From a bacterium (GTDB lineage: Bacteria > JAMCPX01), in the NCBI GenBank assembly GCA_021789095.1, contig JAJYJX010000098.1:1-9549 (forward strand): a stretch of 9,549 nucleotides of DNA. The letters run 5' to 3'. A model generated the notes under the pieces. The model ran no database searches and was not told where the DNA came from. It saw only the letters and a list, made by a program, of their open reading frames with translations. The position numbers were made by a program, and so were the translations under genes. Positions 1 to 6,986 of this stretch are shown here, one piece after another. Within the stretch, counting starts at the first letter, position 1; every line of letters starts with the position of its first letter.

Positions 1-58
1 TGCATACGCAAAGTACCGAGCCTTTGGTTTGTATATGACTGTTTAGACCGTTTCCCAT
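1..58 (-). CDS. 5' end of a riboswitch-controlled gene (runs off window), possibly MOSC-domain
   Basis: Only 19 codons are visible, reading MGNGLNSHIQTKGSVLCVC from an ATG at 58-56 with no stop before the window edge. An AAAGGAG ribosome binding site ends 6 bases before the ATG and forms the 3' strand of the Moco-type aptamer at 65-159, which is the main reason to believe the start. Genes behind Moco riboswitches are known to encode molybdopterin synthesis, molybdate transport, Moco enzymes or MOSC-domain proteins. The hydrophobic strand GSVLCVC near the N-terminus resembles the first strand of small MOSC proteins, but this is too little sequence to assign a function. The start is fairly sure; the product is open. 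Confidence 0.6.
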   Translation of the reverse strand, partial: MGNGLNSHIQTKGSVLCVC

Positions 59-64
59 TCTGCA

Positions 65-71
65 CTCCTTT
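65..71 (-). promoter_or_regulatory. Ribosome binding site inside riboswitch P1
   Basis: AAAGGAG lies 6 bases before the ATG at 58. It fixes that start codon and is the same strand that closes the aptamer helix with CTCC at 158-155, giving a direct on/off arrangement for translation. Confidence 0.75.
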
Positions 72-159
72 CCAAGTAGGGAGGTCAATCTGTTTCCAGA
101 CAGGCCCTATCGTCAGAATACCCATACCGCGGGGCGGCACAGGGCAGACTGATCGGAGC
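65..159 (-). ncRNA. Moco (molybdenum cofactor) type riboswitch aptamer
   Basis: On the minus strand the element opens with GCTCCG (159-154) and closes with CCTCCC...GGAAAGGAG (84-79 and 73-65), the hallmark ends of the Moco RNA motif. CTCC (158-155) pairs with GGAG (68-65) as P1. TCAGTCTG (152-145) pairs with CAGATTGA (92-85) over 8 bp with one G-T, and this stacks directly on CCCT (144-141) with AGGG (108-105). A further hairpin CCGC/GCGG (137-134 with 130-127) lies inside. A GAAA sequence (96-93) sits between TCTG and CAGA, so a GNRA-tetraloop hairpin is an alternative fold. The P1 3' strand is the ribosome binding site of the gene starting at 58, so ligand binding should block translation. 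I cannot tell the Moco form from the tungsten-cofactor variant. Confidence 0.8.
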
Positions 160-166
160 AAAAACA

Positions 167-195
167 AATCTAAATTGAAATTTATTTCATGTCAA
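167..195 (-). promoter_or_regulatory. Sigma70-like promoter of the riboswitch transcript, embedded in the trpF end
   Basis: A perfect -35 TTGACA (195-190) is followed by a 17-base spacer and a -10 TAGATT (172-167, 4 of 6 consensus). The expected start of transcription is about base 160, exactly where the aptamer begins (159). The -35 consists of the last sense codons of trpF (Leu-Asp-Met) and the trpF stop codon is in the spacer. The hexamers are identical to those of the promoter at 6958-6986. Confidence 0.7.
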
Positions 196-820
196 GGCTT
201 TCATAGAAGGACTTGCAGGATGTCCTCAGATTTCCGAACAGCAACTTTATTTTCTCTTTGGACTTTTTCCCCGGAGATATCTCTACACCGCTGGATACAT
301 CGATTGCATAAGGCCTGTATGCATTTGCTATGTCACATACATTGTCAGGCGTTATGCCTCCTGAAAGGATGAATCTGATATTGCCCGCTAGGCCCTTTAT
401 AAGGCTGTAGTCAAATCTTTGTCCCGAACCTCCGTAACCCTCTGTATGGCTATCCAGCATGACCATATCCAGCCCGGACCTGTTTACCTCTTCTATTGAA
501 GAAGCGTCCTTTATCCTGAATGCCTTTATGGCTCTCCTGCCGAGGGCGGCCACAGTTCCAGGGGGTTCACTGCCGTGGAGCTGGGCGTAATCAATACCTG
601 CCACGCTGGTAATGTCTTTTATACGTCCAATATCTTCGTCCACGAATACACCCACGATCGATACAAAAGGCGGAAGTTCTGCAATTATTTTTTTTGCACT
701 CTTAGGCTCTATGTACCTCGGACTTTTCCTATAGAACACGAAGCCAAGTGCATCGGCGCCTGCTCCGCAGGCTGCTAATGCGTCAGCCAATGATGTTATG
801 CCGCAGATTTTTACCTTCAC
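182..820 (-). CDS. trpF: Phosphoribosylanthranilate isomerase TrpF
   Basis: Converts N-(5-phosphoribosyl)anthranilate to CdRP by Amadori rearrangement, the third step from chorismate to tryptophan; cytoplasmic (beta/alpha)8 barrel. Counting from the upstream TTG at 835, the catalytic Cys is in KICGIT (9-14), the catalytic Asp is D128 in MLDS, and the phosphate-binding segments are ILSGGI (156-161) and DVSSGVE (179-185). I chose GTG at 820, which gives the usual N-terminus MKVKICGIT and has GAAGG 8 bases upstream. TTG at 835 is the alternative; it would overlap the trpB stop as TTGA, typical of translational coupling, but its best RBS (GGA) is 12 bases away. It is the last trp gene here, and its final codons carry the promoter of the next unit. 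Function is certain; the start is about even. Confidence 0.93.
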   Translation of the reverse strand: MKVKICGITSLADALAACGAGADALGFVFYRKSPRYIEPKSAKKIIAELPPFVSIVGVFVDEDIGRIKDITSVAGIDYAQLHGSEPPGTVAALGRRAIKAFRIKDASSIEEVNRSGLDMVMLDSHTEGYGGSGQRFDYSLIKGLAGNIRFILSGGITPDNVCDIANAYRPYAIDVSSGVEISPGKKSKEKIKLLFGNLRTSCKSFYESLDMK

Positions 821-831
821 ATTACCGGCCT

Positions 832-2181
832 TCAAATGACAGGCAGGTCCTTTAAAGACTTTTTGATTTCCGCTTCGGGATATTCATAATCCTGGAGTTT
901 ACCGCGCAGGAAGCTGTCGTATGCGCTGAGGTCGAAGTGCCCGTGTCCGCTGAGGTTGAACAGTATTACCTTTTCTTTGCCTTCTTCCTTTGCCTTTTTT
1001 GCCTCGTCTATTGCGCCGAGTATGGCATGTGCGGCTTCAGGGGCTGGTATGATGCCTTCGGTCCTTGCAAATGCGACGGCCGCCTCAAAAACAGGCAGCT
1101 GGTTATAAGCAACAGCCTCTATGATTCCTTCATTATAGAACTGGCTTACGAGCGGGGAATCACCGTGATACCTAAGCCCGCCTGCATGTATGCCGGGAGG
1201 CACAAAATTATGTCCCAGGGTATACATCTTTATGAGCGGAGTCAGGCCTGCTTCATCGCCAAAATCATAGGTATAAGGGCCTTTGGTAAGGGTAGGGCAG
1301 GACGCAGGTTCCACTGCCAATGCTCTTACCTTTTTGCCTGCAAACTTGTCCATGAGAAACGGAAATGCAATGCCGCCGAAGTTACTGCCCCCGCCGCATG
1401 AAGCTATAACAACGTCGGGGTATTCGTTCACTTTCTTTAGCTGCTCTTTTGCCTCCAGCCCTATTACGCTCTGGTGGATAAGCACATGGTTCAGGACGCT
1501 GCCGAGCGAGTAGTTTGTGTCGTTATGTGATGCCGCGTCCTCGACTGCTTCGCTTATGGCTATGCCCAAGCTTCCCGGAGATTCCGGATCCATCTCAAGG
1601 ATCTTTCTGCCTGAATTTGTCAGATCCGTGGGACTTGGATGAACATGCGCACCCCATGTCTCCATCATGATTCTTCTGTACGGTTTTTGATCATAGCTGA
1701 CCCTGACCATGTAGACATTGACCTCAAGACCGAAAAACCTGCCGGCCATTGCAAGGGCGCTGCCCCACTGGCCCGCACCTGTTTCTGTGGCAAGCCTCTT
1801 GATACCTTCCTTCTTATTGAAGTAAGCCTGCGCCACGGCAGTGTTCGGCTTATGGCTGCCGGGAGGGCTCACACTTTCATTTTTATAGTATATCCTTGCC
1901 GGTGTTTTCAGATAAGCCTCAAGATTGTGCGCCCTGAATACCGGGGTAGGCCTCCACATTGTATATACCTTCAACACCTCTTCAGGTATGTCTATCCATC
2001 TTTTGGTTGATACCTCCTGCTCTATAAGGCCCATGGGAAATATGGGCTTAAGGTCGTTCGGGCTTACGGGCTTTTTTGTTCCGGGGTGAAGCACGGGCGC
2101 CGGAGGTTTCGGCATATCTGCCATGATGTTATACCATCTTCTCGGTATTTCTGTTTCATCCAGAAGTATTTTTGTCTGCAT
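832..2181 (-). CDS. trpB: Tryptophan synthase beta chain, TrpB2 type (PLP-dependent)
   Basis: A fold-type II PLP enzyme that condenses indole with serine to give tryptophan. The Schiff-base lysine is K111 in GSHKPNTA, the catalytic Glu is E133 in ETGAGQWG, the phosphate loop is CGGGSNFGG (262-270), and S411 in SGHGHFD is placed to hold the pyridine nitrogen. The length of 449 aa, the long N-terminal extension with RRWYN and WRPTPV (in place of the TrpB1 'GRPTPL') and the HAGGLRYHG segment (332-340) mark it as the TrpB2 (TrpB-like, EC 4.2.1.122-type) subfamily rather than the roughly 400-residue TrpB1. TrpB2 proteins are often stand-alone indole users. Here it sits inside the operon, 1 base after trpC with a good GGAG (2190-2187), and no trpA is seen. 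Start ATG at 2181 is well supported. Confidence 0.95.
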
Positions 2182-6957: not shown

Positions 6958-6986
6958 AATCTAACAAATCCATAGGGAGTTGTCAA
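6958..6986 (-). promoter_or_regulatory. Sigma70-like promoter for the TPR-trp unit
   Basis: Perfect -35 TTGACA (6986-6981), 17-base spacer, -10 TAGATT (6963-6958). Transcription should start near 6951, leaving a leader of only about 22 bases before the TPR gene, so there is no room for an attenuator or T-box. This is the only convincing promoter I find upstream of trpE. Confidence 0.65.

Follow-up and report, generated by a model that had tools for sequence, protein, structure and literature searches.

The left end of this contig raises the question of what RNA lies directly behind a tryptophan operon, which genes it serves and which metal its ligand carries. The window, which is the whole stretch of DNA analysed (9,549 nucleotides), makes up the entire contig C30 of a 203-contig genome. 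The original prediction placed a Moco-type riboswitch at positions 159-65 and proposed an Infernal check with the Rfam model RF01055 on the minus strand. A cmscan search against Rfam (4227 families) gave a highly significant covariance-model match to this family, the Moco/Tuco riboswitch, at 170-49 on the minus strand, with 62.1 bits and an E-value of 2.4e-13, above the gathering score of 36 bits. It spans the full length of the model (1-135) and is the sole Rfam match within the window. A score of this size over the full family length is not due to chance. The element lies where it was predicted, but runs slightly longer at both ends. Judged by its sequence, it is a real Moco/Tuco riboswitch and a further example of an already known family. 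The features are as follows.

1-58, minus strand: first 19 codons of a MOSC-domain gene, identified through a 126-base exact overlap with contig C111
49-170, minus strand: Moco/Tuco riboswitch aptamer (RF01055), P3-lacking type, from the cmscan match above
63-68, minus strand: 3' strand of P1, GGAGUG, in which GGAG 68-65 doubles as a Shine-Dalgarno sequence (pair table, sequence)
72-81, minus strand: P5, 2 bp (family alignment, pair table)
82-107, minus strand: P4 with GAAA tetraloop 96-93; 107-97 pairs with 92-82 (family alignment, pair table)
108-112, minus strand: 5-nt junction in place of P3 (gap at P3 of the model)
113-152, minus strand: P2, pairing 152-142 with 123-113 and 138-135 with 129-126 (family alignment)
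143-138 and 126-122, minus strand: tetraloop-receptor-like internal loop within P2, CCUGUG/UAUGG (family alignment)
155-160, minus strand: 5' strand of P1, UGCUCC, pairing with 68-63 (family pair table)
167-195, minus strand: promoter-like TTGACA-17-TAGATT over the trpF stop codon (10/12), predicted start ~160
182-835, minus strand: trpF, last gene of trpE-G-D-C-B-F, a neighbour outside the switch (PF00697, 2.6e-46; ORFs)

P1, P2, P4 and P5 of the family are all present; of the 37 family pairs in the alignment, 32 are standard in this RNA and five non-standard. Most of the architecture had been recognised in the original prediction. The CTCC/GGAG closing helix corresponds to P1 (CUCC 158-155 with GGAG 68-65), the CCTCCC and 3' signature are found as CCUCCC 84-79 and GGAAAGGAG 73-65, and the possible GAAA tetraloop caps P4. 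An exception is the proposed coaxial helix of 8+4 bp, drawn with 152-141 facing 108-105 and 92-85. These bases can pair, but the helix competes with both P2 and P4, is missing from the minimum-energy folds and is not part of the family structure; it was rejected in favour of the P2 and P4 pairings of the family. The isolated 122-nt RNA folds with a z-score of -2.27 against dinucleotide shuffles, and this fold includes P1. No plasmid-borne copies of the riboswitch DNA were found. A 42-base degenerate core pattern, which was poorly chosen, had no match anywhere, its own genome included.

Because the window is a whole contig, the gene to the left of the riboswitch is cut after 19 codons (MGNGLNSHIQTKGSVLCVC). 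A MOSC-domain search of the genome returned one gene, on contig C111, with a frame that begins with exactly MGNGLNSHIQTKGSVLCVC. Window positions 1-126 are identical to C111 4494-4619, this DNA matched nowhere else in the genome, and the window was joined to the MOSC-mobA genes by this contig-end overlap. On C111 alone, the contig end already places the 3' portion of the aptamer immediately before the MOSC gene. The last three bases of C111 (L024 4620-4622) differ from the window, owing either to an error at the contig tip or to strain variation within P2. The MOSC gene continues on C111 (L024 4551-4048) and is followed by mobA (L024 4051-3446), with a 4-base overlap. The MOSC protein has 167 aa and matches PF03473 (2.3e-10) and, over the MOSC part, an NCBIfam MoaC/MOSC model (2.7e-48); there was no PDB match for it. 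The mobA product matches PF12804 (1e-25), and NCBIfam MobA models with E-values down to 3e-24 that stay under their curated cut-offs.

Convergent to MOSC-mobA is an operon for an EbdA-like alpha subunit C-terminus, a cytochrome b, an EB_dh gamma subunit, an Fe-S beta subunit (TIGR03478) and a chaperone (TIGR03482), the last two both above cut-off. The nearest solved relatives of these proteins are ethylbenzene dehydrogenase subunits. The target is thus a Moco locus, with MOSC and mobA downstream of the aptamer and converging on a type II DMSO reductase operon, and the anticipated metal-cofactor locus beside trp was borne out. Two findings had been named beforehand as speaking against the prediction, a missing covariance-model hit and a target unrelated to Mo/W metabolism; both were looked for and neither applies. 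The ethylbenzene-dehydrogenase-like operon is split over contigs C74 (L145) and C111 (L024), and C74 probably carries the N-terminal part of the alpha subunit. No exact overlap between the two contigs was found, so that their join is likely rather than demonstrated.

The predicted locking of the ribosome-binding site in P1 is seen directly, as GGAG 68-65 is part of the 3' strand of this helix, and the expected start codon, ATG 58-56, stands six bases past it. In the E. coli moaA leader the ribosome-binding site is likewise sequestered in P1 and the cofactor represses (Regulski et al. 2008, PMC2408646). Translational repression is the best reading here, because the Shine-Dalgarno sequence lies in P1 as in E. 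coli moaA and no terminator-like site was found after the aptamer. By this analogy, from which the repressing step is borrowed, bound cofactor probably blocks translation of MOSC and mobA when it is plentiful. Transcription would start at the putative promoter at the end of trpF; abundant pterin cofactor, in its Mo or W form, would bind the aptamer and stabilise P1, and the stabilised helix would hide GGAG 68-65, block the ribosome start at ATG 58 and lower MOSC and MobA synthesis. Without cofactor, P1 would open and both genes would be translated. We consider it very likely that this is a P3-lacking RF01055 riboswitch in the MOSC-mobA leader whose cofactor-bound P1 represses translation. Plain folding of the RNA together with the start of the reading frame favoured an alternative to P1 by ~3 kcal/mol, and the minimum-energy fold contained an anti-P1 hairpin of CCUCCC with the first MOSC codons. 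Shuffled tails favoured an alternative equally in 130 of 1000 cases (13%), so this fold is no evidence for an expression platform, and the hairpin was discarded.

The E. coli moaA leader and the Moco RNA family in general share P1, P2, P4, P5, the GAAA tetraloop, CCUCCC and GGAAAGG with the window RNA, and the E. coli leader also shares a Shine-Dalgarno sequence in P1 and a cofactor-biosynthesis target. In contrast to that leader, the window RNA is without P3, targets MOSC-mobA rather than moaABCDE, and follows a trp operon at a distance of 11 bases. A second RF01055 member in the same genome (G000:C192:5113-4995, 69.1 bits) also lacks P3 and also precedes a Moco gene, but in a different operon: it stands before moaA, followed by MoaC/MogA-like and then MoeA-like frames, all of these names coming from reading of the sequences. 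It differs further in a near-canonical CUAA receptor strand and in GAAG, rather than GGAG, in the 3' strand of P1. Nine genomes of the phylum were examined, and neither RF01055 nor a match to the MOSC protein was found in the eight others, which suggests that riboswitch and MOSC gene were gained in the genus of this genome or lost in the others. The locus adds a clear riboswitch-led MOSC-mobA operon in this small uncultured phylum (9 genomes). The same MOSC type occurs in RF01055-led operons of distant bacteria, namely moaA-moaC-MOSC (L127) and tupA-tupB-ATPase-moaC-MOSC (L142). A riboswitch was present in 1 of 29 other MOSC loci (~3.4 kb scanned at each), so the link between this protein and the riboswitch is real but not general.

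The metal of the ligand is where the evidence divides. Regulski et al. proposed from gene co-occurrence that P3-lacking members sense the tungsten cofactor, Tuco, whose genes were found in 17 of 19 organisms with such RNAs (PMC2408646). The window RNA resembles these members in its missing P3 and short P2-P4 junction, and the absence of P3 from both copies in the genome would fit repression of MOSC-mobA by Tuco. A small sample from elsewhere agrees with the proposal: P3-lacking RNAs precede TupA-type genes in three loci, assigned by model in L004 and L009 and by reading in L007, and, as read from N-termini, AOR-like frames in L003, L008 and L010, while a P3-bearing RNA precedes a ModA-like gene (L011, N-terminal reading). 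Against Tuco as ligand, and unlike the P3-lacking members described in 2008, this genome has neither a detected TupA nor a detected AOR, and its neighbours are of the molybdenum type (mobA, ModA, type II DMSO reductase). It gave no match to the AFOR_C domain of the tungsten enzyme AOR, its PF12849 (PBP_like_2) matches read as PstS, and its sole SBP_bac_11 protein is ModA, above cut-off. PF00384 was matched by just two proteins, the EbdA-like subunit and a second that reads as NuoG, so that in the enzyme searches, which covered AFOR_C and PF00384, a type II DMSO reductase-like protein is the only bis-MGD enzyme found. As the genome is 92% complete, the missing tungsten-cofactor genes (tupA, wtpA, AOR) are not proof of absence. 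Transporters of the ModABC type can take up tungstate too. The characterised type II DMSO reductases are Mo enzymes.

The same inventory of modA, mobA, the type II DMSO reductase and the associated chaperone, beside the undetected tup and AOR genes, would instead favour sensing of the molybdenum cofactor despite the missing P3. However, the E. coli Moco RNA lost its regulatory effect when P3 was deleted (PMC2408646), and the other P3-lacking examples in the sample are tungsten-type or uninformative. Both are refinements within RF01055 membership; we hold either metal only tentatively, at a little under an even chance, and the two are evenly balanced. The P3-lacking RNA in a Mo-type context is the only unusual point of this riboswitch, and the locus is a test case for whether P3 loss marks tungsten-cofactor sensing. 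It is conceivable, although we would sooner expect otherwise, that P3-lacking aptamers are not tungsten-specific and in this lineage sense the Mo cofactor or either metal, in which case P3 would fail as the proposed discriminator between Mo and W. Natural exceptions are useful, since the instability of the free cofactor precludes routine binding assays.

Two further explanations concern the element as a whole. Degeneration of the aptamer to a form without function could be read from its receptor (CCUGUG where CCUAAG is expected), from GAUC in place of GAGC and from the five broken pairs. Yet the 62-bit score, the intact CCUCCC, GGAAAGG and GAAA core, the variation of the same positions in other members and a Shine-Dalgarno sequence and start codon still in register make this very improbable. 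The receptor strands compare as CCUGUG/UAUGG against CCUAAG/UAUGG, and the RNAs of L005 and L009 differ at the same strand. The other explanation places the switch within a long trp-MOSC-mobA transcript that would couple tryptophan synthesis to cofactor status. As had been noted, the riboswitch lies directly behind the trp operon: on the same strand, 11 bases separate the end of trpF from the aptamer, and no terminator-like site lies between them. Such coupling is nevertheless unlikely, as a translational P1 switch would leave the upstream trp genes unaffected, a promoter-like site lies at 195-167, RF01055 matched in none of the eight other genomes of the phylum, and in the closest genomes examined other sequence follows trpF. 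In several of these it is a conserved ~100-aa ORF, not MOSC, so the trp neighbourhood looks incidental from these comparisons, and a conserved trp linkage was rejected because it is not kept in relatives. Any read-through transcript from trp would still be under translational control.

The preferred reading, a translational switch in the MOSC-mobA leader, could be independent of trp if the promoter-like site is used, its predicted +1 at ~160 being the first base of P1. An equally good site occurred in 18 of 1898 sampled 61-nt stretches, and with six comparable sites on both strands of the 9.5-kb window it is suggestive only.

Some minor observations were made alongside. The PstS-like gene in L148 (G000:C149) is split into two reading frames. 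TrpB (PALP) of the trp operon has 449 aa (832-2181, minus strand), with no adjoining trpA in the window. The sequence TTGACA-N17-TAGATT occurs twice on the minus strand in identical form, at 195 upstream of the riboswitch and at 6986 upstream of a TPR gene that precedes the trp cluster.
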